A DNA stretch of 64,000 bases, from assembly GCA_028357285.1 (NCBI GenBank), contig JAOMWM010000004.1, positions 1 to 64,000 of the forward strand. Direction: 5' to 3'. A program made the translations under genes and the position numbers. Positions 2,888-17,249 of the stretch are shown here, in pieces. The notes under the pieces were generated by a model. That model worked only from the letters and a program-made list of their open reading frames with translations, searched no databases and was not told where the DNA came from. This DNA comes from Schleiferiaceae bacterium. Its GTDB lineage: Bacteria > Bacteroidota > Bacteroidia > Flavobacteriales > Schleiferiaceae. Numbering within the stretch: position 1 is the stretch's first letter; the number at the start of each line of letters is the position of its first letter.

Positions 2888-4308
2888 GTACTGCTAAAAA
2901 GTTAGAACGCAAATTACTCATTCGCTATATCGTGTTTGACCTTATTGCTGGCACTGGCGCTTATACCGCGCTCCATTTAGTGCGTAAGCTTTATGTGGAA
3001 CCCGAACGATTCGGCACAGCGATACCTATAAAATTTGATGAAACATTTGTGCTCGCGGCCGCAGCTACGACCACCGTATTTATTAGCATTAGTGCGCTAA
3101 GTGGAATTTATCGAGACCTTACTCGAAAAAGCCGGTTGTCGGAGGCATTCAACACTTTTGGAGGAACTATAATCACAGCGGTAATACTCTTCTTTTTAGT
3201 CTTTCTAGATGACTACATTAAAGATTACAGCGACTATTACATGACATTAGGAACATATCTGATAAGCCTAGTCACACTCAGCGGAATATTTAGATTTACA
3301 CAAAGTTCCATCGTTAGGCATAAAATTGACAAAGGACTTCTTAAGTTTCCGGCCATATTAGTGGGAGGAGGAAAGGATGCAGCGGACCTTCTCGATGCCT
3401 TCGAAAATGACCGTAGTAAGGGATATTCATTTTTGGGGTATTTAAACACATCGGGCGATATCTCTGATGCACGTATGAATGCCGTACCTTATTTAGGCGA
3501 CATCAATCAATTAGCCGATATCATAAACGACAATACTGTTGAAGATGTAATTATCGCACTGCCAACTGGAAATTCAGAACGAATTGCAACTATGGTAAGT
3601 TCTATAGAAGATAAAGACGTACGTATTCACGTTCTCCCTAACCTGTTCAGTATTCTCTCAGGTCAAGTAAAAATGGAAAGTTTAGGACGATCGCTAATTG
3701 AAGTAAAGCGAGAATTAGTAAAGCCGCATGTCGCATTTATCAAACGATTTTTTGACATCGTAGTCGCTTCACTGCTGCTGATTCTCGCTGCACCATTTAT
3801 CTTGTTTTCTATTACAATGATTGCTGTCGGATCTCCAGGACCATTTTTCTATACACAAGAGCGACTGGGTAAAAACGGCAAAAGCTTCAAAATCATAAAA
3901 CTTCGCAGCATGTATCGAGATGCAGAGGTGCAAGGTCCTCAGCTGAGTAGTGAGGACGACCCTCGAATAACGCCTTGGGGAAGAACCATGCGAAAGTTTC
4001 GCCTAGATGAATTACCGCAGTTTCTAAATGTCTTAAAAGGCGATATGGCCATAGTAGGCCCTAGACCCGAGCGCCAATTTTTCTTTAATCAAATCATTGC
4101 GACCGCGCCGCAGTACAAGTATTTATTGAAGGTGAAACCCGGGATTACTTCCTGGGGCATGGTGAAATTTGGCTATGCTGAAAATGTGGAAGAAATGATT
4201 GAGCGCGCGCGATATGATTTGATTTATACAGAAAACATAACGTTAGTAAACGATATCAAAATCCTGTTCTATACCTTAGTCACTGTCTTGCAAGGGCGAG
4301 GCAAATAA
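2884..4308 (+). CDS. Polyprenyl-phosphate sugar-1-phosphate transferase (WcaJ-like)
   Basis: Initiating enzyme for exopolysaccharide or O-antigen synthesis: transfers a sugar-1-phosphate from a nucleotide sugar to undecaprenyl phosphate at the inner membrane. Layout: four N-terminal membrane helices within about residues 12-145, a nucleotide-binding-like CoA_binding_3 region (ILVGGGKDAADLLDAF, DVIIALPTG), a fifth membrane helix after KRFFDIVVASLLL, and the catalytic bacterial sugar transferase domain with FYTQERLGKNGK, KLRSMYRDAE and IVGPRPERQFF. The length of 474 aa fits the TIGR03025-type family. The start codon is TTG at 2884, inside the stop of the preceding gene. No glycosyltransferase cluster follows. 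Confidence 0.92.
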   Translation: MSTAKKLERKLLIRYIVFDLIAGTGAYTALHLVRKLYVEPERFGTAIPIKFDETFVLAAAATTTVFISISALSGIYRDLTRKSRLSEAFNTFGGTIITAVILFFLVFLDDYIKDYSDYYMTLGTYLISLVTLSGIFRFTQSSIVRHKIDKGLLKFPAILVGGGKDAADLLDAFENDRSKGYSFLGYLNTSGDISDARMNAVPYLGDINQLADIINDNTVEDVIIALPTGNSERIATMVSSIEDKDVRIHVLPNLFSILSGQVKMESLGRSLIEVKRELVKPHVAFIKRFFDIVVASLLLILAAPFILFSITMIAVGSPGPFFYTQERLGKNGKSFKIIKLRSMYRDAEVQGPQLSSEDDPRITPWGRTMRKFRLDELPQFLNVLKGDMAIVGPRPERQFFFNQIIATAPQYKYLLKVKPGITSWGMVKFGYAENVEEMIERARYDLIYTENITLVNDIKILFYTLVTVLQGRGK

Positions 4309-4328
4309 AGAACCACAAATCACCCTAA

Positions 4329-5216
4329 ATGAAAAACATTACCGTAATCGGTGCAGGAACTATGGGCAATGGTATTGCTCACGTCTTCGCGCAGAGTGGC
4401 TTTAGAGTCCATCTCTTTGATATCAGCGAATCCGCTCTAGAGCGCGCATTAGGTACTATCACAAAAAATATGGACCGTCAAATCGCTAAAGAGAAATTGA
4501 CGGAATCCGATAAAGCATCAGCCTTGGCGCTACTAACTACGGGAACAAATCTTAAAGATGCCGTAGCAGATGCAGATATAGTAGTTGAAGCAGCCACAGA
4601 AAATACTGCGATCAAATTTCAACTATTTAAAGATATTGATGCACATGCCCCAGGACATTGCATTTTAGCTTCAAATACCTCGTCCATTAGCATAACGAAG
4701 ATTGCCGCACAGACTGCACGTCCTGATAAAGTCATTGGTATGCATTTCATGAATCCAGTACCGGTGATGCGTCTTGTTGAGATTATTCGTGGATACAGTA
4801 CTTCTGATGAAGTCTGTGATGCTGTCATCGAGATGAGCAAAGCGCTGGGTAAAGTTCCAGTGGCCTGTAATGACTACCCTGGTTTTGTGGCAAATAGAAT
4901 CCTAATGCCTATGATCAATGAGGCCATCATTTCTTTGCACGAAGGAGTCGCTGATGTACAGGCTATTGATTCTATCATGAAACTAGGCATGGCCCATCCT
5001 ATGGGGCCTCTGCAGCTGGCCGATTTTATTGGACTCGATGTATGCCTATCTATACTCAATGTACTTCACGATGGTCTAGGGAATCCGAAATATGCGCCCT
5101 GCCCACTTCTAGTGAATATGGTTACTGCAGGAAAATTAGGCGTTAAATCAAAAGAAGGCTTCTACGATTATTCTGCCGGAATAAAAGAAGCTACAGTTAG
5201 TTCACAATTCAAATAA
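4329..5216 (+). CDS. 3-hydroxybutyryl-CoA dehydrogenase
   Basis: NAD(P)-dependent dehydrogenase interconverting 3-hydroxybutyryl-CoA and acetoacetyl-CoA, in fatty acid or butanoate metabolism. The Rossmann glycine motif GAGTMGNGIAHVFAQSG is at residues 8-24, followed by EAATENTAIK and the catalytic histidine motif MHFMNPVPVM, then the NDYPGFVANRI junction to the C-terminal dimerisation domain. 295 aa is the normal length for the stand-alone enzyme (Hbd/PaaH type). It follows the sugar transferase by 20 bp and precedes the peptidase by 7 bp; the functional link is not obvious. Confidence 0.93.
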   Translation: MKNITVIGAGTMGNGIAHVFAQSGFRVHLFDISESALERALGTITKNMDRQIAKEKLTESDKASALALLTTGTNLKDAVADADIVVEAATENTAIKFQLFKDIDAHAPGHCILASNTSSISITKIAAQTARPDKVIGMHFMNPVPVMRLVEIIRGYSTSDEVCDAVIEMSKALGKVPVACNDYPGFVANRILMPMINEAIISLHEGVADVQAIDSIMKLGMAHPMGPLQLADFIGLDVCLSILNVLHDGLGNPKYAPCPLLVNMVTAGKLGVKSKEGFYDYSAGIKEATVSSQFK

Positions 5217-5223
5217 TCATACT

Positions 5224-6405
5224 ATGAAATTACGCTTACTCCTTGCTGGAGCACTACTAAGTTCTCAGGCTATTGCACAAGTCGATCTCATTAACAAGGT
5301 AAAAGATAATGGAGCTGACGCACCCTTAGGATACGAATGGGAAACCATCGTTGACATAGAAGCAACGCCAGTTAAAAATCAAGGTGCTTCAGGTACGTGC
5401 TGGTCTTACGCCACCACCTCATTCGTTGAAAGCGAAATGATGCGTATGGGTAAGGAACCCGTGGATCTCTCAGAAATGTACACAGTTCGCAAAGTTTATC
5501 AGGACAAAGGTGAAAAGTATATCCGCCTTCATGGGTACCTAAATTTTGCTCAAGGTGGTGCCCTACCCGATGTACTTTATGTCATTAAAAATTACGGCGC
5601 AGTTCCACAAGAAGTCTACAACGGTCTAAACTACGGTACTGAAAAAAACCGCCATGGCGAAATGGAAGGTGCTTTAAAAGGCATTCTAGATGCTGTGAAA
5701 GGCAATAAGAATGGAAAATTATCTACTTCCTGGAGGAAAGCATTTGATGCGACTTTGGATGCATATTTAGGCGAAGAACCGGCACAATTCGGCTACAATG
5801 GTGAGACCTACACACCAAGAAGTTTCGCTGATGAAGTTATTGGTATCGACCCTGATGACTACGTTCAGCTCACCTCTTGGACACACCACCCGTTCTATGA
5901 GGCTTGTCAAATTCAGGTACCAGACAACTGGACATGGGGTACTTCTTACAACCTTCCTATAGATGAAATGATGGAAGCTCTTAATGCATCACTAGAAGCA
6001 GGGTATCCAGTCGCATGGGCTTGTGATGTGAGCGACAAAGGATTTTCTATTAAAAATGGTATTGCTGTAATGCCGAACCAGAGTTGGAGCGATATGAGCA
6101 CAGAAGAAGCGCAAGCTATATACGCCGGGCCACATGATGAAGCCATAGTTGACCAAGGGGCGCGTCAAGAACAATACGACAATTACCTTACACAGGATGA
6201 TCACGGCATGGTCATACAAGGAATGGTAAAAGATCAGGAAGGAAATGTTTTCTATATCGTCAAAAACTCTTGGGGCGATATTCCCAACGATTTTCGACCT
6301 GGATACCTCTATGCCTCAGAGAGCTATGTGCGCTTAAAGACCATTAGCATCATGATGCACGGCGATTCTATGGAGAAGTCTTTGAAAAAGAAATTGAGTT
6401 TATAA
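5224..6405 (+). CDS. Secreted C1 family cysteine peptidase (PepC/bleomycin hydrolase-like)
   Basis: Papain-fold peptidase of the C1B aminopeptidase type. A signal peptide (MKLRLLLAGALLSSQAIAQ) is followed by the active-site region VKNQGASGTCWSYA with Gln53 and nucleophile Cys59, then His327 in DDHGMVIQG and Asn348 in VKNSWG, so the full catalytic set is present. Bleomycin hydrolases and PepC are normally cytoplasmic; the clear signal peptide places this member in the periplasm or outside, as in several Bacteroidota. The 393-aa length is slightly short for the family. A strong terminator follows. Confidence 0.9.
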   Translation: MKLRLLLAGALLSSQAIAQVDLINKVKDNGADAPLGYEWETIVDIEATPVKNQGASGTCWSYATTSFVESEMMRMGKEPVDLSEMYTVRKVYQDKGEKYIRLHGYLNFAQGGALPDVLYVIKNYGAVPQEVYNGLNYGTEKNRHGEMEGALKGILDAVKGNKNGKLSTSWRKAFDATLDAYLGEEPAQFGYNGETYTPRSFADEVIGIDPDDYVQLTSWTHHPFYEACQIQVPDNWTWGTSYNLPIDEMMEALNASLEAGYPVAWACDVSDKGFSIKNGIAVMPNQSWSDMSTEEAQAIYAGPHDEAIVDQGARQEQYDNYLTQDDHGMVIQGMVKDQEGNVFYIVKNSWGDIPNDFRPGYLYASESYVRLKTISIMMHGDSMEKSLKKKLSL

Positions 6406-6428
6406 TCTAATTTAATAGATCCTCAATG

Positions 6429-6463
6429 AAGCCGCTCATCTTATGGATGGGCGGCTTTTTTTT
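6429..6463. terminator. Bidirectional terminator
   Basis: Stem GCCGCTCATC / GATGGGCGGC followed by a run of eight T. It lies between the convergent peptidase and PAP2 genes and includes the PAP2 stop codon. Confidence 0.8.
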
Positions 6464-7056
6464 ATGGCCGTGAACGCTCGGTTCACGAGCAGCGCTAGAA
6501 TCATACCTAATACTGCACCGGCCATGACATCCGGTAACCAGTGTGCCATTAAATATACACGAGAAAGCCCTACTCCTATTACAGCTATGGCAGCTAAAAT
6601 TTGAACTGATATCTTTTTGAAATGAAATGCAAGCAATGTGAAAAACACGAATGCCGTAGTCGTGTGGCCGCTCGGAAAAGCGAATTGTAAGGGTACTTCG
6701 AGCCCTTCCGGCAATAAGGTCTCAGACCATTTGATTACTGCCATAGGCCGAGGTGTCGGCGCGAATACTAAGCGTTTCAAGGATTGGACTACGATACTTG
6801 ATAGTATGCCGGCAGATAGAAACTCAAGAGCCATGAGATAACGCTTTTGTAAGGCAACGGCAATAATTACAATAGCAAAGAGGTGAGCCTCACCCCAGCT
6901 TGTAACGACTCCCATCCACCAATATCCCGCTGGACTATACCACGCATGATGCAAGGCGAGCTGAGCATCTACTTTATTTGGATAAAAGCATAAAAAAAGC
7001 CCGCAGCACATGATAAACAGAACTGCGGGTATACTATAAAACGGGATCTGCTTCAT
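6436..7056 (-). CDS. PAP2 superfamily membrane phosphatase
   Basis: Integral membrane phosphatase, likely acting on lipid phosphates such as undecaprenyl pyrophosphate or phosphatidic acid. The three PAP2 motifs are present: KRLVFAPTPRP (motif 1, K-x6-RP), PSGHTTTAF (motif 2) and SRVYLMAHWLPDVMAG (motif 3, R-x5-H-x3-D). About five to six membrane helices; 206 aa. The start codon overlaps the stop codon of the START-like gene (TAATG), so the two form a unit in the order START-like then PAP2. Confidence 0.9.
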   Translation of the reverse strand: MKQIPFYSIPAVLFIMCCGLFLCFYPNKVDAQLALHHAWYSPAGYWWMGVVTSWGEAHLFAIVIIAVALQKRYLMALEFLSAGILSSIVVQSLKRLVFAPTPRPMAVIKWSETLLPEGLEVPLQFAFPSGHTTTAFVFFTLLAFHFKKISVQILAAIAVIGVGLSRVYLMAHWLPDVMAGAVLGMILALLVNRAFTAIKKSRPSIR

Positions 7057-7442
7057 TAGGCACCTATAGTGTGCTGTAATTCATGAATCTGACTCTCCCA
7101 GAGCTGTTTCGCTTCCTCTATTTCATCAGCATTGGCAAAGTCTGTTACTATGATAGAAGTATCGTTCGTTAGCGCATCGACCTCGATTCTGAACTCAAAG
7201 TATGTGTCTAAACCATCCTCTTCGTCACTCAGCCACCGGAAACGAACCATTTTATCCATTTGTTTCTTCAATAGTCGCGCTTGCTCTTCTGAGCCGTCCC
7301 AGAAAAAGGTAAAGAGTTCCGTTCTTGAGTTAACATCGTCACAAAACCACTCGCTTAGTCCTGAAGGTGTACTCAAAAATGGGAACAGCATCTTTGGAGA
7401 AGCGCGAAGCGGAATTTCTAACTCATATTGTATTTTTTCCAT
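7056..7442 (-). CDS. START/AHSA1-like domain protein
   Basis: 128-aa protein conserved in Bacteroidota with a START-like (SRPBCC) helix-grip fold. N-terminal YELEIPLRASPKMLFPFLSTPSGLSEWFCDDV is the typical opening strand and loop of Aha1-C-type domains; the C-terminus is one long helix (ADEIEEAKQLWESQIHELQHTIG). A ligand is not known. It overlaps the PAP2 start by 1 nt, so translational coupling is likely. Confidence 0.8.
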   Translation of the reverse strand: MEKIQYELEIPLRASPKMLFPFLSTPSGLSEWFCDDVNSRTELFTFFWDGSEEQARLLKKQMDKMVRFRWLSDEEDGLDTYFEFRIEVDALTNDTSIIVTDFANADEIEEAKQLWESQIHELQHTIGA

Positions 7443-7561
7443 GTGTGGTAACTAACTAATTCATGCAATATAACAAGTCAAACGAAATAAGCAACACTTT
7501 GTGCAAAAACCCTTGCAAAAACTGTAGTTATGACATATTCTTTATCTTCATGATGCTAATT

Positions 7562-8782
7562 ATGAATCCCATGCAGTCTACCGCTTCTATCTTTCGTCAG
7601 CCCATTATTTGGGTTGCGGCGCTTGGATATTTTGTTGATATCTATGACTTATTACTTTTTAGTATCATTCGCATTCCGTCATTAACGGATCTAGGTATCG
7701 CCGATCTAAGTGAAGTCGGTATGCTCATCTTAAATACCCAGATGTTCGGTCTACTACTCGGCGGAATCTTGTGGGGTGTGCTAGGAGATAAATTAGGCCG
7801 CACAAAAGTGTTGTTTTACTCAATCGCACTCTACTCTTTGGGCAATATTGCAAATGGATTTGTTACAAACGGTACGCAATATGCATGGATCCGATTCTTT
7901 GCGGGTATCGGTCTTGCCGGAGAATTAGGGGCAGGTATAACGTTAGTCTCGGAATTACTACCAAAAGAGAAGCGTGGTATCGGGACATCACTGGTTGCAG
8001 GCGTCGGTCTCACAGGTGCTGTTCTTGCCTTTTTTATTGCCCAGTGGTTCGATTGGCGAACGTGTTATTTCATCGGTGGAGGATTGGGATTACTACTTCT
8101 TTTTGTTCGATTGAGCGTTTTTGAAAGTGGCCTGTATAAGAGCTTAGCCTCGAACTCTAAAGTATCAAAAGGTAATTTTTTAATGTTATTTGCGACTAAA
8201 GAACGTTTCATGCGTTATTTAAGAAGCATCTTGATCGGTTTACCCACATGGTTTGTAGTGGGAATCCTCATCTCCTTTTCCCCAGAATTCGCACGCCAAT
8301 TAGGCATAGTTGAGTCTATAGATCCCGGTATTGGTATAATGGTTAGTTATAGTGCCATCGCTATTGGAGATGTAGCCATCGGACTCTTATCCCAAAGACT
8401 AAAATCACGTAAGCACGCAATGCACGTATTTTATATCATAACAATGATTGGAATGCTCGTTTTCTTTACGGCTTCCTCTGCTTTACAATTATACATTTCC
8501 ACCGGAATAATGGGCTTTGGAACAGGATTCTGGGCAGTATTTGTGACTATTGGTGCAGAAAATTTCGGGACTAATTTGAGAGCCACAGCCGCTACCTCCA
8601 TCCCAAATATGGTCCGGGGTTCACTCAATGGTATTACAGCACTCTTCCTAGCACTTAATGCAAAAATCACATATGTCAATGCCGGTATCGTAACGGCTGC
8701 TGTAGTAATGCTTATAACGTATTGGGCTATATCTGGTCTACAAGAAACCTTCGGCAGGGATTTAGACTTCTATGAGGAATAA
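7562..8782 (+). CDS. MFS transporter
   Basis: Twelve-helix major facilitator permease of 406 aa. The loop between helices 2 and 3 carries the MFS signature WGVLGDKLGRTKVLF, and helix 4 has ARIRFFAGIGLAGELGAG-like spacing (WIRFFAGIGLAGELGAG), resembling the sugar/metabolite:H+ symporter branch (SP/MHS families). I start it at MNPMQSTASIF (ATG 7562): a longer in-frame start at 7463 adds 33 residues with no homology-like character. The substrate is unknown. A terminator and the tRNA gene follow. Confidence 0.85.
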   Translation: MNPMQSTASIFRQPIIWVAALGYFVDIYDLLLFSIIRIPSLTDLGIADLSEVGMLILNTQMFGLLLGGILWGVLGDKLGRTKVLFYSIALYSLGNIANGFVTNGTQYAWIRFFAGIGLAGELGAGITLVSELLPKEKRGIGTSLVAGVGLTGAVLAFFIAQWFDWRTCYFIGGGLGLLLLFVRLSVFESGLYKSLASNSKVSKGNFLMLFATKERFMRYLRSILIGLPTWFVVGILISFSPEFARQLGIVESIDPGIGIMVSYSAIAIGDVAIGLLSQRLKSRKHAMHVFYIITMIGMLVFFTASSALQLYISTGIMGFGTGFWAVFVTIGAENFGTNLRATAATSIPNMVRGSLNGITALFLALNAKITYVNAGIVTAAVVMLITYWAISGLQETFGRDLDFYEE

Positions 8783-8784
8783 AA

Positions 8785-8819
8785 AAACCCTCTGAAGTTT
8801 TGACTTCAAAGGGTTTCTT
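8785..8819. terminator. Bidirectional terminator between the MFS gene and tRNA-Met
   Basis: Hairpin AAACCCTcTGAAGT / ACTTCAaAGGGTTT with T or A runs on both sides. It serves the MFS gene on the plus strand and ends the tRNA transcript 2 nt beyond the tRNA on the minus strand. Confidence 0.8.
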
Positions 8820-8820
8820 G

Positions 8821-8894
8821 TAGCGAGAGAGGGGCACGATCCCTCGACCTCCGGGTTATGAATCCGACGCTCTAACCAGCTGAGCTACCTCGCC
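8821..8894 (-). tRNA. tRNA-Met (anticodon CAT)
   Basis: 74-nt cloverleaf on the minus strand: acceptor GGCGAGG / TCTCGCT (G-U at both ends), D-arm GCTC-AGCTGGTTA-GAGC, anticodon loop TTCATAA, T-stem GAGGG/CCCTC, discriminator A; CCA is not encoded. It lacks the initiator hallmark of three G-C pairs next to the anticodon loop, so it is an elongator tRNA-Met or possibly tRNA-Ile2 (CAT read as lysidine). Odd points: the T-loop reads ATCGTGC in place of TTCRANN, and pair 31-39 is A-C. Its 5' half (from the anticodon loop outward) and promoter form one copy of the island repeat, so this gene is a junction product: 3' half chromosomal, 5' half and promoter from the element. Confidence 0.92.
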
Positions 8895-8958
8895 ATTCGT
8901 GGGGTGCAAATATAATGCGCCTAATGAAATAGGAAAGTGATTTTTTGAATAATATCAA
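8855..8958 (-). repeat. Left attachment site (attL): tRNA 5' half plus promoter
   Basis: Direct repeat of 104 bp matching 14188-14292. It consists of a 43-bp perfect block (8855-8897: anticodon loop to the tRNA 5' end) and a 59-bp perfect block (8900-8958: promoter and upstream region), separated by two bases (cg) where the right copy has three (gaa). Crossover in the 43-bp block would make the promoter block here element-derived. Confidence 0.85.
8907..8937 (-). promoter_or_regulatory. Promoter of tRNA-Met (element-borne copy)
   Basis: On the minus strand a perfect -7 box TATATTTG (8907-8914) lies 12 nt before the tRNA 5' end. The position 19 nt upstream is CTTT, a weak -33. The same promoter is repeated at 14241-14248. 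Confidence 0.65.
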
Positions 8959-9402
8959 AAAGCCTCTACCAGTAATAGATACAGCTCTGGCAGGCAGTAA
9001 ATATTGGCATTTCCTTTCTTCTTAAAACCAGTTACTTTAAAGAACAGTTCACTCGTGACAGTGATTAAATAATGCTGTAAAAATAGGTGGATAAGAGCAT
9101 ATATTGTCAGTTTTTACTGTCAGTTTTTCCAAAATTCTGCAAGTGGCTAGGTCTAATTAGACACCCATACCCTTGGGAATCTGTTTCGGTATTCAATTCC
9201 GCCTGACTGTATATGTATAGAATCCCATCCCTCTGTATTTCTAGGCAGTATTTCTTGATGTGTGTACCCAATGTTGAGTAGTTATCTCATTATTGATATG
9301 TTAGGGGAGTGATTGTTCCATAAATCTGTAGGGCTTGCCTCAGTAAACATTGTGTTCTACCTTCAAAGGGTACAAAAAGCACCACATATATAGGGAGCTA
9401 TT
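8959..9402. other. Non-coding left end of the island; possible origin and integrase arm region
   Basis: 444 bp without a convincing gene. It holds the paired TGTCAGT repeats at 9105-9124, an inverted relative TGACAGT at 9056-9062, and a perfect 12-bp palindrome GTCTAATTAGAC at 9151-9162. These are the kinds of site an integrase, a replication protein or a repressor would bind. No iteron array is apparent by eye. Confidence 0.4.
9105..9124 (+). repeat. Paired TGTCAGT repeat, candidate integrase arm-type sites (left)
   Basis: Two TGTCAGT units 13 bp apart. The same paired unit, 14 bp apart and in the same orientation, occurs at 14110-14130 beside the integrase start. Placement at both ends of the element matches the arm-type sites of tyrosine integrases. 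Confidence 0.5.
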
Positions 9403-10878
9403 ATGGGTAGGAAGAAGAGAAGGCAGTTATTCAAGGTTGTTATACCAATTAGCTTATTAGGGTTAGTAGGATTAAATGAAGAGTTAGAGGCAGCTAATTA
9501 TAAGCTTGCCCACTTCATCTCTATCCTCACACATCACATATACAGCAATTACCCTAATGGGGATTACTACTTGAAGAAGCCTCTTACATCAGTGTACTTG
9601 GGAATGCTGTACAACAAGCGTTACCTAAGTGAAGTTATAACTCCCCTAAAACAAGATGGCATTATAGAAGTTAATGACAGTTATTCAACCGACTTAGGTT
9701 TCTGCAAAGAGTACGGCTTCAATAAAGGCATCATACAGGAGGTAATAGATGAAGAGTATACAGAGGTATACATAACCAAGAACACACTAATAAACAGAAT
9801 CAACGACTGGCAAAGAGAAACACTTAACAGGCAGATTAAGAAGTACCGCTTCATAGAAACAGAAGCAGATATGCTGTTGAACCTAAGTATTGAGACTACT
9901 GCCCTTGAACAGCTTTACAGCCAGCGTATAGAGGACATTAAGCAGTCTAGTGACAAGAAGAAGAAACTGGCTATAACCAACGCTACAAGGCACAAGGAAG
10001 AGATATTGCAGCTAACAGAGGCAAGAGACTTATTAGATGCACGTGTAAGGTATATAAGCGGTAGGGTGTATCACCCTTTTGTACAATGTCCCAGAGAGTA
10101 TCGTAAAGCTGTGGTTGATGAACAAGGAGAACCTTATGTTGAGGTAGACCTTAGAAGCTCTCAAGCAGTCTTCTTATGTAAGGTGATAGCCGTTGCCTTA
10201 AAGCACAGGCTAATCACCTATGAGTTTGGTAAACAAGCAACAGCATCTGACAATCTAATAGAACAGATAATACCACTCCTTGATGAACCGATTAATGTGC
10301 TTGAGCAGGGAGTATATCCAAGTGACTTTATTGCTTTTGTAAGCGCTGTATTCCTAGATGACATCTACGAGGATGCCAGTCCTAAGAACATATCACAATC
10401 AGCTTCAGTACAGGTTGGAGAGAATATATATGAGGTCGGAGGTTACACAAGGGTGTCTGGTGCTAAGACACTTGTAGGTGAAGCTCGTGATGAAGCCAAA
10501 AGACAGTTCTTCAAAGACATATTCTTCAACTACTACAACAAGGAAAACTACGGTGTAGCGGGACAGCTTTCAATCAGTACTGAATACCTTGAGGACTTTG
10601 CAAAGACGTACTATACTGTCTATGAGTTCTGTCGCATTTGTGCTTTACAGAGTAAGGAAGGGAAGAAGAAGTCTAGAGACCTAGCACTACTGCTTCAACA
10701 AACAGAATCAAGGTTCTTTCACGAGCTGCTACCAAGCGCTCTACGCGGCATAGAACCATTCAACTACTTCGTAGTCCACGATGCTTTATATGTCCCTCAC
10801 AAGCAGCAAGAAACAGTTATAAATGCGTGTAATGAGGAGGCAGTTAAGTTCTTTGGAGTAGTACCTATGTTTAGGTAG
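9403..10878 (+). CDS. Putative element replication protein with family-A-polymerase-like palm motifs
   Basis: 491 aa, no family I can name with certainty. Residues about 33-120 look like a winged helix of the replication-initiator kind (YLSEVITPLKQDGIIEV followed by a strand and FCKEYGFN). About 160-215 is a charged coiled coil. The C-terminal half carries, in order and at plausible spacing, RVYHPF and a basic loop, then VEVDLRSSQ (Asp249, Gln254; like motif A), RDEAKRQFFKDIFFNYY (Arg362, Lys366, Tyr377; like the R-x3-K-x6/7-Y motif B) and YFVVHDALYVP (His439, Asp440; like motif C VHD). These match the palm/finger signature of family A DNA polymerases and phage-type RNA polymerases. The start ATG has an AGGGAG ribosome-binding sequence at 9392-9397, uncommon in this phylum. 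The reading is inference until structure comparison is done. Confidence 0.55.
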   Translation: MGRKKRRQLFKVVIPISLLGLVGLNEELEAANYKLAHFISILTHHIYSNYPNGDYYLKKPLTSVYLGMLYNKRYLSEVITPLKQDGIIEVNDSYSTDLGFCKEYGFNKGIIQEVIDEEYTEVYITKNTLINRINDWQRETLNRQIKKYRFIETEADMLLNLSIETTALEQLYSQRIEDIKQSSDKKKKLAITNATRHKEEILQLTEARDLLDARVRYISGRVYHPFVQCPREYRKAVVDEQGEPYVEVDLRSSQAVFLCKVIAVALKHRLITYEFGKQATASDNLIEQIIPLLDEPINVLEQGVYPSDFIAFVSAVFLDDIYEDASPKNISQSASVQVGENIYEVGGYTRVSGAKTLVGEARDEAKRQFFKDIFFNYYNKENYGVAGQLSISTEYLEDFAKTYYTVYEFCRICALQSKEGKKKSRDLALLLQQTESRFFHELLPSALRGIEPFNYFVVHDALYVPHKQQETVINACNEEAVKFFGVVPMFR

Positions 10879-10889
10879 TATAAACCTGT

Positions 10890-10916
10890 TTGTGAGCAAC
10901 TAATAGTTACTCACAA
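10890..10916 (+). terminator. Hairpin after the polymerase-like gene
   Basis: TTGTGAGCAACT / AGTTACTCACAA, an 11-pair stem with one mismatch and a 3-nt loop, 12 nt after the stop codon. There is no strong T run, so it may be a mRNA-stabilising or weak terminator structure. Confidence 0.45.
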
Positions 10917-10979
10917 TACTTAGAGATATGAACGACAGCCTTAGGGTTAAACTGATTACATAGTCGGTGTTTCATCCAT

Positions 10980-11008
10980 AAAAAAGCCCCTTCCGAAGAA
11001 GAGGCTGA
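10980..11008 (-). terminator. Terminator for the cargo operon
   Basis: On the minus strand AGCC-CTTC-TTCG-GAAG-GGCT followed by TTTTTT, a hairpin with a UUCG-type tetraloop, 22 bp beyond the BspA-like lipoprotein stop codon. Confidence 0.75.
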
Positions 11009-11029
11009 TATCTTAAGTCTACTTATCCT

Positions 11030-11716
11030 TTAAGGACAAGTACCCCAAACTGGGTGGTTAGCTGTTGATGCGCTGAGTGAGAAATTATTAGGCATAGTTG
11101 TAAATTGACTTACACACCATTGGGTTAAGTCTTGGTTAAAGGAACCTGCTGCAAAAAACATACCGCCCATTTCAGTAACATTACTGACATCCCAGTTACC
11201 AATGTCTTGGTTGAATGACGATGCCCACCAAAACATAGAACTCATATTAGTCACATTACCAACATCCCAATTACCAATGTCTTGGTTGAATGACTTTGCA
11301 TAATCAAACATAATACTCATATCAGTTACATTACTCACATCCCAATTACCGATGTCTTGGTTGAAGGACTGTGCACCCTCAAACATAAAACTCATATTAG
11401 TCACATTACTAACATCCCAAGAACTTATATTCTGATTGAAGTCATAAGAAGCTTCCTGAAAAAGAAGTGACATATCCACAATCTTTGAGGTGCAGTACTT
11501 CGTTAAGTCAATATCACGTTCAATAGCACGTGTTAACAATGCCTTATTAGCTACTTGATATCTAATTCCATCCAAAAGGAATGATTCACCAGCGGTATAA
11601 TTATCACATTCAAGGCAACCACGACTATTAAATTGCGCATCACCAGAATTCTCAGTGTCTGTTTTGTCGCAACTTATAATTGCAAGTAATGGTAAAAGGA
11701 AAAGTAATTTCTTCAT
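11030..11716 (-). CDS. BspA-like surface lipoprotein with DUF285 repeats
   Basis: 228-aa predicted lipoprotein: [16 protein letters not shown] is a clear SpII signal with lipobox. The body carries about four tandem 25-residue repeats of the DUF285/BspA type (core [20 protein letters not shown], with F, W and M/F positions invariant). Repeats of this family are found on surface proteins of Bacteroidota and mollicutes, often in adhesion. At the DNA level the units are nearly identical with a 75-nt period. An upstream in-frame ATG would overlap the preceding gene by 29 bp; the start used here leaves a 7-bp gap and keeps the AATACACC-n-ATG leader shared with the two genes upstream. Confidence 0.85.
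11160..11430 (-). repeat. 75-nt tandem coding repeats in the BspA-like gene
   Basis: The motif caatgtcttggttgaa recurs at about 11200, 11275 and 11350 with a 75-bp period, each encoding one DUF285 unit. Near identity of the copies indicates recent expansion and makes repeat-number change by slippage or recombination likely. Confidence 0.75.
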
Positions 11717-11723
11717 TGGTGTA

Positions 11724-12203
11724 TTACTGATTAGCAGCCTTGATAGCTTCATTCAACTTATCAGCTACTTTATTGAATTGATTATCTCTTTTTCTGAGAC
11801 ACGCTTCTGGTGATAAAGCAATCATTGAAAATGCTTTGTACGAGACTACGCAGAGACCTGTTCCCGCAGCTGTCATAGGAATACCTAAACCAGGGGACCA
11901 ATAAATAAGCAACCCACCAAAAAAGACCAAAAAACCTCCTGCTGGACCATTTGCAGCACCACTAACAAAGTTAAAGGTGTTATTCGTACCACGGAGGTAT
12001 GAACTCTTATACATAAGGTTAAACCTATTAGCCCTGAGGATGTTACCTCCTCCGGATTTATGTAATTCAGTTAAATCATAAATCTGTTCCATTGACAATT
12101 CCTCTCCATTCTGAGTGAAGGTGCCTTCATTGTATTCAACGTAATCCTGGCTGAAAGCAGAGATTGATATCAGTACTGCTGCAATTGTAGTTAGTAGTTT
12201 CAT
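11724..12203 (-). CDS. Exported island protein A, paralogue of protein B
   Basis: 159 aa of unknown function. Residues 1-18 ([18 protein letters not shown]) are a signal peptide, followed by [20 protein letters not shown], which is shared nearly residue for residue with the 12475-12981 product. After about residue 40 the two diverge, though both keep a long hydrophobic stretch (here [18 protein letters not shown] and about 25 more apolar residues) and a basic C-terminal helix rich in K, N and Q after a single Cys. It is probably exported and membrane-associated. The BspA-like lipoprotein gene follows 7 bp downstream, so the two are cotranscribed. Not recognised beyond flavobacterial hypothetical proteins of this style. 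Confidence 0.75.
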
Positions 12204-12352
12204 AGGTGTATTCGTTTGGATATTACTTCATCAAGTTAAGGTTATCTAAAACTCTAACCAATGAGTTAAATATCAATTATGGACTGATAAATCACCTCTA
12301 CGCACTTGTTTTTATTGGCTTATCGGGTTTCTGTCTCATTAACGAGAACAAT

Positions 12353-12460
12353 CTACAACTCTGGCAAGTCCTCAACATCCAGTTGTTTAATTTCTAAGTT
12401 TCTTAAATAGGTAAGTGATACTTTGAGGTCGCTATGGCCCATTACCTGCTGTAGCTTGAG
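12353..12460 (-). pseudogene. Remnant of a second tyrosine integrase (last 35 codons)
   Basis: The minus strand reads in frame LKLQQVMGHSDLKVSLTY (with catalytic His and Tyr) and on to VEDLPEL and a TAG stop. It matches the last 35 residues of the intact integrase (13042-14106) with four conservative or single changes (M to L, G to N, V to I, R to K) but about 20 of 108 nucleotides differ, mostly silently. It therefore comes from a related integrase that evolved under selection, not from recent duplication and decay of this one. It lies directly upstream of protein A, as the intact integrase end lies upstream of protein B. Confidence 0.85.
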
Positions 12461-12474
12461 TAGTTATATCGGTT

Positions 12475-12981
12475 TTAATATCCGAGCAGTTTGTATTTAG
12501 CTTCTATCTTTTTATTCAACTTCTCTACTAATTTCTCACATAGCTTATCAACTTTATTTTGACACCTGTCCTTTGTAGAATGGACATAGGCCAAATGAGG
12601 AAAATAAGCAGTCGCTGATGCGAGACCAACTGTTATAACCCCAAACCCTACTGCACCTACCATATCCCCACTGTCTGCACTGACAAGAGAAAAAAGTCCA
12701 AATAATCCTGTTCCAAGGGCCAAAACAGGAGTTTCTATGATAGATAGCGATAGCATACCAACACGCCTAAATTTATTTTCGCAATTTCTTATTTGTTTTT
12801 TTACACTCTGCAAACGCGCTCGGTAGAATGGAACCCTGTATTGTTTCATTATCAGCTCAACTTTATCTAATGAAAGTTCTTTTCCATTACTTGAGAAGGT
12901 TCCTTCATTGTACTCAACATAGTCTTGACTGAAAGCAGAGATTGATATCAGTACTGCTGCAATTGTAGTAAGTAGTTTCAT
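12475..12981 (-). CDS. Exported island protein B, paralogue of protein A
   Basis: 168 aa of unknown function. It has the same leader as protein A ([20 protein letters not shown] then [14 protein letters not shown]), then a different middle: a basic helix (QSVKKQIRNCENKFRRV), two apolar stretches (SLSIIETPVLALGTGLFGLF and about 30 residues around MVGAVGFGVITVGLASATAYF) and a charged C-terminal helix with two Cys (CQNKVDKLCEKLVEKLNK). Probably exported and membrane-inserted. It begins 60 bp after the integrase stop codon. Confidence 0.75.
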   Translation of the reverse strand: MKLLTTIAAVLISISAFSQDYVEYNEGTFSSNGKELSLDKVELIMKQYRVPFYRARLQSVKKQIRNCENKFRRVGMLSLSIIETPVLALGTGLFGLFSLVSADSGDMVGAVGFGVITVGLASATAYFPHLAYVHSTKDRCQNKVDKLCEKLVEKLNKKIEAKYKLLGY

Positions 12982-13041
12982 AGGTGTATTAGTTTATCAT
13001 AAATCTAATGAATCTACAGTGACTTCCTGTTTCATTCTGAC

Positions 13042-14106
13042 TTACAACTCTGGCAAGTCCTCAACATCTAACTGCCTCACCTCTAATCCCCTTAAATAGG
13101 TGAGGGATACTTTCATATCGCTATGCCCCATTACTTGCTGTAGCTTGAGGAGAGAGCCTGTCTTTTCAAAGACTTTGATTGCACCGTGATGTCTCCAACT
13201 ATATAGGGTCACCCCTTCTTCCATTAGTTGCGACTGTTTGCGGTAGCGAGACCATAAAAGCGATATATAATCACGATTGTAAGGTGTATCTGCGGACGAT
13301 AGGATATAATTATCGTGTAGCTTGTTTTTATCAAAGGAGTGTAAAACCTCTACGATAAATTCAGTCATAGGCACTACCCTATTCCTTCCGCTCTTATTGC
13401 GCTTACCGCTTAGTGAGATTATTCTTCGTTCAAAATCTATATCTCCCCATTTCAACAGCCTTATCTCTTGATGTGGACGAAGTAAGCATCCATAGGTAAG
13501 TATACAGGTTAAATACAACCGCTTATCGTAGCGTTTAATGTCCTCCAATAGCTCCTTTGGATTCCTTATAGGTTTATGCAATTCGGACTTGATACGGCTC
13601 AACTTTATGCCCCCTAATTGAACATTCAGAATGTCTTTAGTAAGGATTTTAAAGTAAGTTAGTATGTTCTTCTGAGTTCTCGCTGACCACCTGGGTTGTT
13701 TAACAAAGTCCTCTACTATCCTTCTGGTTATACTATCTGAATTACAGCTGTTTAAATCCACTTCCTTAGAGTACTTTATCCACTGATTGAATAACCACTT
13801 GCAATCTCTTTTATAGTGAAACGAATAACGCCCCGCTTGCTTCTTTATTAGCTGCTCCTCAAGTAATTCAATAAAGGTTTTAGGGACTACAGCTTTAACT
13901 TTCTTCGCTTTTCTAACAGGAGGCTTCCACCCTTCTCTAAGCTTTAACTCAAATGCGCTACGCAATAAATAGGGGTCTTCGCTTGCATTTAAATTCACAT
14001 TAATAACCTTCCCATTCCAATAACGATACCGCTTGTTTTGGTAGTACACATTGATGAAAGGTTTACTCTGAGCTGAACCCACAGTTACGCTCCAATTCTT
14101 CTTCAT
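13042..14106 (-). CDS. Tyrosine recombinase/integrase of the island
   Basis: 354-aa site-specific recombinase, expected to integrate and excise the element at tRNA-Met. The N-terminal part (1-60) includes an arm-binding-like segment (INVYYQNKRYRYWNGKVIN), 75-165 the SAM-like core-binding domain, 180-354 the catalytic domain. Catalytic positions: Arg210 in YGCLLRPHQEIRLLKW, a Lys in SLSGKRNKSGRNR, Arg305 in LYSWRHHGA (Tyr302 stands where His is usual, as in many Bacteroidota integrases), His328 in MGHSD, and nucleophile Tyr337 in SLTYL. The gene begins 81 bp inside the right attachment repeat and its upstream region holds paired TGTCAGT motifs, which suggests autoregulation. Confidence 0.93.
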   Translation of the reverse strand: MKKNWSVTVGSAQSKPFINVYYQNKRYRYWNGKVINVNLNASEDPYLLRSAFELKLREGWKPPVRKAKKVKAVVPKTFIELLEEQLIKKQAGRYSFHYKRDCKWLFNQWIKYSKEVDLNSCNSDSITRRIVEDFVKQPRWSARTQKNILTYFKILTKDILNVQLGGIKLSRIKSELHKPIRNPKELLEDIKRYDKRLYLTCILTYGCLLRPHQEIRLLKWGDIDFERRIISLSGKRNKSGRNRVVPMTEFIVEVLHSFDKNKLHDNYILSSADTPYNRDYISLLWSRYRKQSQLMEEGVTLYSWRHHGAIKVFEKTGSLLKLQQVMGHSDMKVSLTYLRGLEVRQLDVEDLPEL

Positions 14107-14109
14107 AAT

Positions 14110-14130
14110 TGTCAGTATTGTACTGTCAGT
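14110..14130 (+). repeat. Paired TGTCAGT repeat, candidate integrase arm-type sites (right)
   Basis: Two TGTCAGT units 14 bp apart, 4 bp upstream of the integrase start codon. They match the pair at 9105-9124. Binding here would overlap the integrase leader, so the sites could couple recombination to repression of the gene. Confidence 0.5.
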
Positions 14131-14168
14131 TATGAGCTATTCCAGTAAGTATTTGATTTTAAGGCGGT

Positions 14169-14187
14169 AAGACTTAGATATAGTCTT
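14169..14187. repeat. Inverted repeat abutting the right attachment site
   Basis: AAGACT / AGTCTT, a perfect 6-bp stem with a 7-nt loop that ends exactly where tRNA identity ends (14188). It could be part of the integrase core site or a hairpin in the integrase leader RNA. No T run follows. Confidence 0.45.
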
Positions 14188-14292
14188 GTTATGAATCCGA
14201 CGCTCTAACCAGCTGAGCTACCTCGCCATTGAATGGGGTGCAAATATAATGCGCCTAATGAAATAGGAAAGTGATTTTTTGAATAATATCAA
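14188..14292 (-). repeat. Right attachment site (attR): displaced tRNA 5' half plus promoter
   Basis: 105-bp copy of the left repeat: 14188-14230 equals 8855-8897 and 14234-14292 equals 8900-8958. It contains 40 nt of tRNA-Met (G1 at 14227 to just after the anticodon loop) with no 3' half, so no functional tRNA can be made here. This is most likely the original chromosomal promoter and 5' half. Confidence 0.88.
14241..14271 (-). promoter_or_regulatory. tRNA promoter now facing the integrase gene
   Basis: Perfect -7 box TATATTTG at 14241-14248 on the minus strand, identical to the one driving the intact tRNA. Transcription would run through the 40-nt tRNA 5' half, the inverted repeat and into the integrase start at 14106, with no terminator between. 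Confidence 0.6.
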
Positions 14293-14352
14293 CACCCTTC
14301 CTTATGAACCTTTACCTATCGCTATTGTTAGATTAAAAACAACACAAATCGT

Positions 14353-14472
14353 ATGGACACCCTCATTTATCTACTTACTGCAGGACTATTAGGAAGCATA
14401 GTTATTTCCTTTCGCATTATGCATCACCTTGCCAAAGAGATTGCCGACTTGAAGAAAAAGTTAGAAGCATAA
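14353..14472 (+). CDS. Small membrane protein, 39 aa
   Basis: Short open frame starting MDTLIYLLTAGLLGS: one membrane helix of about 22 residues followed by a charged amphipathic tail (KEIADLKKKLEA). A terminator hairpin begins at the stop codon, which supports it as a transcribed gene. It lies 60 bp outside the right island border. Function unknown; the shape resembles small single-span proteins that join larger membrane complexes. Confidence 0.6.
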   Translation: MDTLIYLLTAGLLGSIVISFRIMHHLAKEIADLKKKLEA

Positions 14473-14500
14473 AAAAAGCGGGCAATGCCCGCTTTTTTTT
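14471..14500. terminator. Bidirectional terminator
   Basis: AAAAAAAGCGGGC-aat-GCCCGCTTTTTTTT: perfect stem with A/T runs on both sides, between the 39-aa gene and the convergent lipoprotein gene. Confidence 0.9.
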
Positions 14501-14915
14501 ATCTGGTAAGGATTAAATCATAATTCCAATAGAAGCTATTACCTGAGTTTGGATCATAATCCTGATAATCGTAATTCAAATGCATACTGTCTTCAGCCTC
14601 ATTAATATACCACTCTAAACAGGGTGCCCAATTCATATAGAATTCATCGGTAGTCCAGCTGTACCCCCACTGTTGATACATGTGGTCGCTCAACATGGAA
14701 ACATCGAAGGTTGCACTCCCGTGCTTCGCTAAAGTTAAGGTACCTGAATGATCTTCATTCGCAGCACTAAGCTGTCCTACCGCATCGTGCGATCGATTCA
14801 ACGCTACATTCCACGGAGCTTTATAAAAACGTTCTGTGTTCGTCTCCGTAGTAGTTTGCGTTTCGCAAGAAGCGAACAAGACAACAAAGGGCAAAAGCAA
14901 TAAAGTTCTTCTCAT
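14499..14915 (-). CDS. Hypothetical lipoprotein
   Basis: 138 aa. MRRTLLLLPFVVLFASC is an SpII signal with lipobox at Cys17. The mature part is short, acidic and aromatic-rich, with WNVALNRSHDAVGQLSAANE and a closing beta-like segment (GNSFYWNYDLILTR); this is reminiscent of lipocalin-like or META-like small beta-barrel lipoproteins, but I cannot assign a family. Separated from the PAP2 gene by about 46 bp on the same strand. Confidence 0.75.
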   Translation of the reverse strand: MRRTLLLLPFVVLFASCETQTTTETNTERFYKAPWNVALNRSHDAVGQLSAANEDHSGTLTLAKHGSATFDVSMLSDHMYQQWGYSWTTDEFYMNWAPCLEWYINEAEDSMHLNYDYQDYDPNSGNSFYWNYDLILTR

Positions 14916-14961
14916 TATTCGATTTAATTATTAATGTCTCCCTACAAGAATCGGGCCGATA

Positions 14962-15906
14962 TTACCAATTTATAGCGATAGAAGGTCCGACAACTCCAAA
15001 ATTTTGGCCTATCCCCATTTGAGTGCGGTACTTTCGTCTTTCCTTCAATGAACGAGATGTATTTCGACGCTCATGGTAATTTTCATAGACTACCTTTCCA
15101 ATGAACTCTCCTATTACAGCACCAGCTACCAATTCACTGACCCAATGGTTGTGTCCGCGAATGTCATAAAGCAAGGCTGTAGTTGCTAAACCGTAGGGTA
15201 TCCATTTATTATCAAAAACTTTAGCATTTACACTTGCAAAAGCAAAGAACATTGTGGCATGGTACGAAGGAAAGCCTGTACCGTAAGCATCGGAATGAAG
15301 GTATGGCACATGAAAGTTGAAAAAATCTAAAGGACTATGTACAAATGGATATTGGCTGTCCCTATCAGTTTGACTATAATCTCCCAATGGTCGTGCGGGA
15401 CGATGTCGAGCCGCCAAGGTCTTTAGGACGATGTGGCTTACAACATAGGATTCAACAACTGCCTTAACTGTGAGTAGGCCAGCCTCCTGCATTTTTTCGT
15501 GTCCCGTAAGCACACCTGCTGCATACATTGCTGTAACACCTGTATACATCCAGCCGTCAACTCCACCTCCCCATCTACCCAATACGGGTACATTGGGATA
15601 CAAACTAGGGAAAGACACCACCGACCGAATATGAACATCCAAAGGCTCAATATGCTCCTGAAAAAACTTCGTGGTCTGGTAATCCGTAACAATCATAGCA
15701 AACAGCTTGACACCATTTACAGAAAGATTTGGGTTCTTTAACGGTCGGTTAATGATGGCTTTCGCATCATCATCGATGGTCAGCAAGGTATTTCTAATTA
15801 TACCGACGCGGGTTTCTTTGACCGTTCTATCTATTTCAAAATCAAGCTGGGCCACCATAGGTAGCGAAAAGAAAAGCGCTGCAACCAATAAGGCGCAGCG
15901 CTTCAT
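14962..15906 (-). CDS. Secreted or membrane PAP2-family phosphatase
   Basis: 314 aa from the start chosen here (MKRCALLVAALFFSLPMVAQ, a good signal peptide); in-frame starts at 15921 and 15963 exist, the last overlapping glyA. PAP2 motifs: KTLAARHRPAR (motif 1), PSYHATMFF (motif 2, with Tyr for the usual Gly) and RGHNHWVSELVAG (motif 3, Arg and His present, Glu in place of the usual Asp). The acid-phosphatase-like layout with an exported N-terminus suggests a periplasmic phosphatase. Follows glyA closely, perhaps on its transcript. Confidence 0.8.
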   Translation of the reverse strand: MKRCALLVAALFFSLPMVAQLDFEIDRTVKETRVGIIRNTLLTIDDDAKAIINRPLKNPNLSVNGVKLFAMIVTDYQTTKFFQEHIEPLDVHIRSVVSFPSLYPNVPVLGRWGGGVDGWMYTGVTAMYAAGVLTGHEKMQEAGLLTVKAVVESYVVSHIVLKTLAARHRPARPLGDYSQTDRDSQYPFVHSPLDFFNFHVPYLHSDAYGTGFPSYHATMFFAFASVNAKVFDNKWIPYGLATTALLYDIRGHNHWVSELVAGAVIGEFIGKVVYENYHERRNTSRSLKERRKYRTQMGIGQNFGVVGPSIAINW

Positions 15907-15953
15907 AATACTCTTGTACATATTACTAAGGCTATTGGTTCCTTCGAAGATAA

Positions 15954-17234
15954 TTAATCCCAAGTAAACAACGGGCGGTCCTGCATCATTTTAACGACTT
16001 CATCGCCAACTGCATTTATGTGTGTATCTGAATCAATGTTTGTCACTACTCGGTCAATAAAGTCGGTGATGGTTTCCATATCCGCTTCTTTCAGTCCACG
16101 CGTAGTGATGGCTGATGCCCCTAAACGAATGCCAGAGGTAGTGAATGGGCTTTTATCATCGAAAGGCACCATATTCTTGTTTGCGGTAATATGAGCACGA
16201 ACTAATGCATGCTCTGCCGCTTTACCTGTTACGCCTTTATTGCGCAAATCAATCAGCATTAAGTGATTATCCGTTCCACCTGATATAATATCATACCCCC
16301 GATCTACAAAAGCCTTAGCCATGGCTGCTGCATTCTTTTTCACCTGCAATTGGTAGTGGAAGAACTCTTCCGTTAAAGCTTCACCATAGGCAATAGCTTT
16401 TGCTGCTATAACGTGCTCAAGAGGTCCACCTTGAATTCCCGGGAAGATTGCCATGTCTAATACATTAGACATCATTTTCACTTCGCCTTTCATGTTGGTT
16501 TCCCCCCATGGATTTGGAAAGTCCTCTCCCATCATGATCATACCACCTCGTGGTCCACGAAGGGTTTTGTGCGTAGTGGTTGTGACGATGTGGCAATGCG
16601 GCATTGGGTCATTAAGAATACCCTTAGCAATCATACCCGATGGGTGCGATATATCTGCCAAAAGGATGGCTCCTACTTCATCTGCTATTTCACGAAAGCG
16701 AGCAAAATCTATATCACGGCTGTAAGCTGAAGCACCTGCGATGATCATGCGCGGCTTGCATTCTTTCGCTTTCGCTTCAATAGCCTCATAATTCAATAAA
16801 CCCGTCTCCTTTTCAACACCATAAAATTCCGCATGGTAGATTTTTCCTGAGAAGTTTACTGGTGAACCGTGCGTGAGGTGTCCCCCGTGACTAAGATCAA
16901 AACCCAAAACCGTATCACCGGGCTTCATCACTGCGAGATATACTGCAGCGTTTGCCTGCGATCCAGAGTGTGGCTGAACGTTGACATAAGCTGCGCCATA
17001 TAGTTCTTTCGCACGATCGCGTGCCAAATCCTCGACGACATCTACAATCTCACACCCGCCATAATAACGCTTACCAGGATATCCTTCCGCGTATTTATTG
17101 GTAAGGACCGAACCCTGGGCTTCCATAACTTGCGCAGAGGCAAAGTTTTCTGAAGCAATCAGCTCTATTCCATTAACTTGTCTCTGGCGTTCCTGGGCGA
17201 TTAGGTCGAAAATCGTAGTATCTCTCATGATCAA
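15954..17234 (-). CDS. glyA: Serine hydroxymethyltransferase
   Basis: PLP enzyme converting serine and tetrahydrofolate to glycine and methylene-tetrahydrofolate, the main one-carbon source. 426 aa, full length. Motifs: N-terminal [44 protein letters not shown] (PLP-binding Asp and His) and the PLP-lysine region [15 protein letters not shown]. The start MIMRDTTIF has a second ATG two codons in. An inverted repeat lies in the 70-bp gap upstream. Confidence 0.98.
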
Positions 17235-17249
17235 TTTATGAATCGTAAA

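Follow-up and report, generated by a model that had tools for sequence, protein, structure and literature searches.

A minimal family-A polymerase with a predicted N-terminal winged helix carried by a 5.3-kb element integrated at a tRNA-Met gene in a Schleiferiaceae bacterium

The window analyzed here, a stretch of 64,000 nucleotides from contig JAOMWM010000004.1 of a Schleiferiaceae bacterium, contains an integrated element of 5,333 bp (8855-14187) whose target is an intact tRNA-Met (CAT) gene (8820-8894, minus strand). The element is bounded by direct repeats of about 104 bp, the left copy (8855-8958) covering the 5' half of the tRNA gene and about 64 nt upstream of it, and the right copy lying at 14188-14292. 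Each repeat is made up of an exact 43-nt block (8855-8897 and 14188-14230) and an exact 59-nt block (8900-8958 and 14234-14292), and the copies differ solely between these blocks, where the left has CG and the right GAA. Joining the flanks gives a 398-base site that was found whole in two of 24 congeneric genomes, G009 (88%) and G016 (87%), identifying empty sites in which the G009 sequence carries the left repeat allele and the G016 sequence the right. Two other congeners, G024 and G011, have related integrase or cargo DNA at the same tRNA gene; as their contigs end inside that DNA, absence of the polymerase described below cannot be claimed for them. The G+C content of the element interior (8959-14187) is 38.8%, versus 42.2% (1-8854) and 43.4% (14293-30000) in the flanks.

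The element encodes five scanned proteins. One, which we refer to as P0001, is read from the plus strand (9403-10878), and the other four from the minus strand: a tyrosine recombinase (integrase) of 354 aa (13042-14106; PF00589, E 2e-15), a DUF285 repeat protein (11030-11752; PF03382, E 7e-63), a small protein with no Pfam match at E up to 1 (11724-12203), and a second small protein with Pfam matches below cut-offs only (12475-12981), the gene of which repeats in its 5' part that of 11724-12203 (85%). No helicase was recognized among these five proteins using Pfam. The sequence-only reading of this DNA had supposed that P0001 might serve a small element, and the tRNA-Met repeats, the integrase and the empty sites bear this out. 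Repeated stretches are also present within the element: 12354-12463 matches 13043-13152 (82%) and appears as a remnant of an integrase 3' end, while beside it a second copy of the start of the neighbouring cargo gene is seen (12088-12217 versus 12866-12995, 85%). This pattern would fit tandem integration of two related elements followed by loss of the DNA between them; in G024, too, this tRNA gene is accompanied by several repeats of this kind.

Similar TGTCAGT pairs are found inside both ends of the element, the TATTGTCAGTT / TACTGTCAGTT pair at 9102-9125 and ATTGTCAGTATTGTACTGTCAGTT at 14108-14131, both given on the plus strand. Allowing up to one mismatch, TACTGTCAGTT occurs four times in the window, three of them at these pairs, versus an expectation of 0.9, and one of 100 shuffles reaches four. 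The pairs would suit either integrase arm sites or initiator sites. In 8855-9405, 10879-11029 and 14107-14187 we found no iteron array or origin, a TGTCAGT pair being the only repeat there, and with no repeat array in these three stretches a classical iteron initiator was ruled against.

P0001 starts with ATG and is 491 aa long, and the three motifs quoted in the sequence-only reading are all present in it: motif A, VEVDLRSSQ (aa 246-254; 10138-10164); motif B of the fingers, RDEAKRQFFKDIF (10486-10524), in the stretch RDEAKRQFFKDIFFNYY that spans aa 362-378 and includes Arg362 and Lys366; and motif C, YFVVHDALYVP (aa 455-465; 10765-10797). Searches with P0001 returned no Pfam match at E up to 1, PF00476 of bacterial DNA polymerase I included, noise from PHROGs (E 0.078), and no PDB sequence match beyond noise. 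NCBIfam, which was queried with P0001 and the relative P0002 introduced below, likewise gave noise for P0001 (E 0.01, far below cut-off). An ordinary PolA is encoded separately in the host genome, so P0001 is not the housekeeping enzyme.

To describe the protein further, a structural model of P0001 was generated with AlphaFold2 from 62 family members and no templates (pLDDT 79.8, pTM 0.81). In this model, the C-terminal part of the protein is predicted to form a thumb, palm and fingers, the thumb-like long helices occupying aa 127-209 (9781-10029), as judged from the AlphaFold2 secondary structure and from VIA-align rows that begin at model residues 132-148. All of the best 50 PDB matches obtained with Foldseek belong to the family-A polymerases (best E 1e-4, prob 1.00); their TM-scores are low, 0.24-0.38 by query length, which we attribute to the angles between domains and to insertions. 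VIA-align, whose best 50 matches are all family-A DNA polymerases, placed the Plasmodium apicoplast polymerase first (Z 13.9, rmsd 4.0 over 264 residues, model 146-491), and gave Z-scores of 12.7 for Bacillus Pol I, 12.6 for Pol theta, 11.5 for T7 DNA polymerase and 11.2 for Klenow. That no other family occurs in these 50 rows is not in itself evidence against one. Two BFVD viral models of about 400 aa, one of them named putative DNA polymerase I of a marine phage, match far better, with TM-scores of 0.74 and 0.75 by target length. The model thus gives P0001 a predicted thumb-palm-fingers fold of the Pol I type, in agreement with the earlier assignment of its motifs to a PolA-type palm. The resemblance to bacterial DNA polymerase I extends to fold and motif register, whereas that enzyme carries exonuclease domains; no exonuclease or other nuclease domain was found in P0001, the modelled thumb helices of which come directly after the N-terminal domain.

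That N-terminal domain is modelled as a winged helix both in the full protein and when aa 1-126 are folded alone (pLDDT 85.2). It spans approximately aa 30-106 (9490-9720); the winged helix proposed in the sequence-only reading therefore stands in the model, with its limits moved from the aa 33-120 given there. VIA-align ranked the winged helix of ORC2 first (Z 9.0, 2.7 Angstrom over 93 residues), followed by TFIIE and MarR-type proteins (Z 7 to 7.5), while Foldseek with the winged helix alone returned no match under 0.001 (best E 0.07). The assignment is accordingly a predicted one, drawn from the model and a ranked list.

We next compared sequences. A single collinear hhalign alignment of the P0001 family with a 15-row Pol I profile pairs R221 with R668, R234 with R690 and D249 with D705 of E. 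coli Pol I, S253/Q254 with S707/Q708, R362 with R754, K366 with K758, F370 with F762, Q432 with Q849, and H459/D460 with H881/D882. The Pol I residues paired in this way are, we take it, the functional ones. On this register, D249 and D460 are predicted to be the two metal-binding aspartates of motifs A and C, R362 and K366 the RxxxK of the fingers helix, and R221 the template arginine. G220-R221 (10060-10065), in register with Pol I G667-R668, constitutes a fourth family-A motif absent from the sequence-only reading, and Q432 falls within an LQQTE stretch (10693-10707) that also contains E435.

The statistics of these comparisons are modest. Family against Pol I, hhalign gave a P of 0.0042 and a probability of 8%, and with E. 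coli Pol I added a P of 0.03, a probability of 1.6% and a score of 23.8, where two reversed profiles and an integrase profile scored 15.3-17.0. In single-sequence comparisons with 60 shuffles per target, the scores for L047, a short and distant palm protein from the phylum (43.6), MAP_030 of phage Ma-LMM01 (26.7) and T7 RNA polymerase (23.1, over 21 columns only) exceeded all 60 shuffles, while that for the Klenow part of E. coli Pol I (19.4) was reached by 5 of 60 and that for T7 DNA polymerase (14.8) by 28 of 60. Taken by themselves, then, the sequences link the family weakly to Pol I and, as the pairwise scores are modest, it is structure and invariance that carry the family-A claim.

The score against T7 RNA polymerase, together with the HDS form of motif C in most members (S in 62/66, A in P0001), which is similar to the HDSF of T7 RNA polymerase, raised the question of whether P0001 might be a single-subunit RNA polymerase, serving either to transcribe the element or to supply RNA primers. 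We consider this very unlikely: the best 50 PDB matches are DNA polymerases with Foldseek and VIA-align alike, F, Y or L is found in 62/66 members at the position of Pol I F762 with the motif B spacing of Pol I, and P0001 has 491 aa versus 883 for T7 RNA polymerase. Among the BFVD matches, many of which are unnamed, the first row named RNA polymerase is at rank 42. As only the HDS stretch aligns, a T7-like RNA polymerase was set aside.

Relatives of P0001 are difficult to reach directly. Searches with P0001 itself found no relative in the genome_contigs and viral_contigs sets by short patterns, in plasmids, in phages, or by protein search of the 24 congeners, and a comparison with 395 genomes of the order gave a single weak match besides itself (G182, E 2.9e-4). 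This protein, P0002, is encoded on a Chryseobacterium lacus contig and adjoins a tyrosine recombinase, and the remaining relatives were reached by using P0002 as the next query. Family matches were obtained in five of 59 relatives of G182 (query genome counted), in 11 of 395 genomes of the phylum (own or query genome counted) and, with a 22-row profile, in 20 of 395 sampled genomes of the phylum (own genome counted). One Hymenobacter plasmid and six phage records added further relatives. Relatives were also found at 59 genome-contig loci, all titled Bacteroidota except one titled only 'bacterium', and at 50 loci in IMG/VR. Profile search of every ORF in the fetched loci (E up to 1e-5) yielded 126 distinct ORFs, a number that takes in fragments and split genes, from which 66 were selected for alignment with fragments, near-duplicates and very divergent matches (e.g. 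L041, L043, L045 and L053) omitted. Within the genus, a profile search across 25 genomes, the host's own among them, revealed one more polymerase, L203 in contig C50 of G008, cut by the contig end; by eye, its neighbourhood contains ORFs resembling the AAA_24 and DUF3871 types seen beside other relatives.

In the alignment, R221, D249, Y322, K366, E435 and D460 are invariant (66/66), while Q254 is Q in 65/66 members, H459 is H in 64/66, Q432 is Q in 64/66, R362 is R in 58/66 and G220 is G in 37/66, even though the other aligned members share just 14-21% identity with P0001. Conservation of Asp249, Lys366 and the motif C aspartate, on which the sequence-only reading had staked its proposal, is thus complete among aligned members, and the 'Asp440' named there is a miscount of residue 460. 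Given this invariance despite low identity, the motifs of P0001 are, on the strength of the alignment, not a product of chance. The invariance also weighs against the idea that P0001 is an inactive polymerase relic that merely binds DNA, for example as a directionality factor for the integrase. Winged-helix proteins are described as serving as directionality factors of tyrosine recombinases (PMC11963761), and RRM-only, probably inactive relatives are described as adjoining other elements (PMC10061031); the catalytic residues are, however, intact in P0001 and invariant across the aligned members, and we give this idea hardly any credence. P0001 does depart from the majority at three positions, S252 (N in 60/66), A255 (P in 62/66) and A461 (S in 62/66), which counts against its being a replication protein. 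L042, a match of the 22-row profile outside both the 66 and the 126, has Glu at the D249 position of motif A, and by eye L041, L042 and L007 show intermediate NCH or NSH forms of this motif.

A FastTree phylogeny of 62 members placed P0001 on a long branch grouped with eight IMG/VR members (support 0.863). When 22 members were scanned, three matched phrog_4756 of unknown function (best E 1.1e-5), one matched phrog_15971, DNA polymerase I (E 0.002), and one, in alignment A1, had a weak match to PF18662, the Cch helix-turn-helix of SCC helicase (E 0.0069). Against the DNA polymerase I of phage G20c the 22-row profile reached an E of 1.5 only, with the GRLHTN and HD stretches in place. A match of P0002 to designed pentatricopeptide proteins in the PDB (E 2.6e-7, aa 92-134) was taken as a composition artefact; no stretch passes alone.

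In L009 (1471-3531) the polymerase ORF continues into a GIY-YIG/NUMOD1 homing-endonuclease part, the match having been assigned to this locus by length (686 aa) and sequence. Contig CALSMU010000004.1 carries two polymerase loci, L106 and L108, approximately 16 kb apart, the latter split into two overlapping ORFs. L023-L027 are members of 387-424 aa on phage genomes of 595-735 kb. For the distant L047 (298-1677), relatives occur in 122 phage records, among them 98 of Vibrio and 14 of Aeromonas, and among the matches listed (H8-H22) its annotated relatives are hypothetical proteins except for one DNA polymerase.

To place the family in its genomic context, we analyzed the 59 genome-contig loci, for 58 of which the polymerase was present in the ORF set. 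A related tyrosine recombinase lies within 5 kb at 40 of the genome loci. In 17 cases it is encoded on the opposite strand no more than 120 bp away, and for 26 of the 40 a tRNA gene is present within 400 bp of the recombinase; at the viral loci a recombinase was found within 5 kb in two of 50. The second end was sought within the fetched flanks of 22 tRNA-linked loci and found for one, L090, which provides a second element with both ends, about 9.3 kb long and bounded by a 44-nt repeat of tRNA-Asn. Judged by how their sequences start, two adjacent cargo genes in L090 (1349-3243) look like those of a phage Gp37/Gp68-type protein and a three-Cys-motif partner protein.

The Hymenobacter qilianensis plasmid L248 (NZ_CP060788.1) carries an annotated replication initiator and a ParA family protein away from the polymerase. 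The polymerase is therefore not the only replication gene of that plasmid, and the idea that it acts there as sole replication protein was dropped. In L248 (27817-30450 and 407-4398) the ParA family protein accompanies the replication initiator and a second nucleotide-binding protein lies near the polymerase, and the plasmid may be a fusion of two replicons.

For the neighbouring genes, 168 ORFs were collected after removal of related recombinases, and 88 from 150, chiefly longer ORFs, were scanned. The 25 families listed out of 74 for these 88 ORFs are led by AAA_24 (12) and DUF3871 (11); a resolvase domain occurs three times, and neither a D5 helicase nor any other helicase is present among the 25. 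A literature search on DUF3871 and AAA_24 returned unrelated matter only. We assume that AAA_24 covers Sak4-like annealing or recombinase ATPases, and the prominence of these two families, like the lack of a helicase among the families listed, favours an accessory repair or recombination polymerase, one that extends ends arising from integration, excision or annealing and does not start replication. The phage polymerase divPolA2, for which PMC11348598 describes a proposed role in repair or as an RNA polymerase, points the same way. However, AAA_24 and DUF3871 match none of the five proteins of the element described here, and a winged-helix head would be more expected of a site-specific initiator or regulator; on balance, we think such an accessory role unlikely for P0001.

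The sequence-only reading had held P0001 to be unlike any known replication protein. This does not hold, as the TV-Pols (transposon-virus polymerases; Iyer, Abhiman and Aravind 2008, PMC2579912) and CcPol-MP, the SCCmec primase, are close in kind. TV-Pols have a core consisting of a minimal thumb, a hairpin with the template arginine, an RRM palm with two Asp and RxxxK fingers, they reside in mobile elements with integrases (some lambda-type) or resolvases, and a subset has an extra N-terminal domain, uncharacterized and predicted to be all-helical (PMC2579912). The four core features are matched in P0001, which likewise lacks a nuclease domain and has an extra N-terminal domain, and its family shares the residence in mobile elements or viruses, the recombinases and the Bacteroidetes hosts. 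A figure legend of PMC2579912 names Cytophaga hutchinsonii, a Flavobacteriales bacterium, Polaribacter and Psychroflexus, so some members of the P0001 branch may already be counted there. Differences are that in the model the N-terminal domain of P0001 is not all-helical but a winged helix that includes a beta wing, and that part of the TV-Pols are linked to a D5-like helicase, of which there was none among the 25 of 74 neighbour families listed for relatives of P0001.

Phage Ma-LMM01 is named in PMC2579912 without its gene, and from its transposase-gene neighbours and motifs we take MAP_030 for the Ma-LMM01 TV-Pol, the phage genome having been covered except for its last 12 kb. A putative primase gene, MAP_134, lies beside another transposase in the same phage. 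The family HMM did not detect MAP_030, the sole presumed TV-Pol compared (E 0.52), and hhalign placed the best local match in the N-terminal domain (P 0.014, probability 3%). When alignment over the full length was forced, D-x-x-x-C-H of MAP_030 paired with motif A and LLQxxE with Q432/E435, while its HD missed H459/D460. As TV-Pol features are common to both and the match to MAP_030 is weak, we file P0001 as TV-Pol-like and not as a proven member; it probably works like a TV-Pol in kind and belongs beside or within that group.

Of the systems tested experimentally, CcPol-MP comes nearest. By itself, CcPol extends primers; in combination with MP it starts DNA de novo, as described in PMC7581432 and PMC10061031. 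In CcPol-MP and the PolA-SSB primases, a family-A polymerase is the replication or priming enzyme of an integrating element, as is proposed for P0001, and a recombinase is likewise nearby. They differ in that full-length PolA-SSB primases contain the 3'-5' exonuclease region in whole or in part where P0001 has the predicted winged helix, and in that PolA-SSB is encoded with an OB-fold partner and a helicase, whereas no helicase was recognized in the P0001 element. The divPolA2 of barbaviruses is similar to P0001 in having a palm without exonuclease and an unusual N-terminal domain, yet PMC11348598 reports no thumb homologous to those of other polymerases, while the P0001 model has a thumb. A Barba31A polymerase, which may be divPolA2, is at rank 21 of the BFVD matches to P0001 (weak, E 3e-3). 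Family-A polymerase ORFs are also described from a putative mobile element of an algal plastid (PMC4487195). Among titles and abstract openings of the open-licence literature, we found no description of this winged-helix family-A branch.

Taken together, we consider it likely that P0001 is the replication protein of the 5.3-kb integrative element, acting as a primase-polymerase or primer extender that is TV-Pol-like in kind. The tyrosine recombinase would excise the element as a circle via recombination between the tRNA-Met repeats, and the winged helix would bring P0001 to a site on this circle. There, the family-A palm would make DNA using two-metal chemistry at Asp249 and Asp460, and it might either synthesize the initial primer, in the manner of CcPol and its partner MP, or extend a nick or transcript. 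Host replisome proteins would do the remainder, and copies would re-integrate. Replication modules usually include a helicase, and the lack of one among the five scanned proteins counts against P0001 being a replication protein, as does the missing iteron array or origin in the three stretches examined. From the modelled domains, P0001 could, as the sequence-only reading suggested, combine an origin binder with a polymerase or primase. In the furthest form of this proposal, for which the chances seem to us well below even, a single 491-aa chain would bind an origin by its winged helix, make its own primer and extend it, and the 5.3-kb element would need no helicase, primase or initiator of its own.

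New here are the divergent family-A branch, the winged helix predicted for it, and an element of defined limits whose recognized genes include no helicase. According to PMC10061031, almost every known primase is of the DnaG or AEP family, and in PMC7581432 Bebel et al. state that to their knowledge CcPol was, as of 2020, the sole TV-Pol characterized biochemically. P0001 itself draws nothing above noise from Pfam, NCBIfam or the PDB, yet its family is found in 20/395 sampled genomes of the phylum and on phage contigs. With a single candidate replication gene in a small element whose ends are known, the idea that a family-A polymerase can start replication alone becomes directly testable. If P0001 does constitute such a one-protein replicon, it would stand for a wide branch of family-A primase-polymerases in Bacteroidota and jumbo phages.
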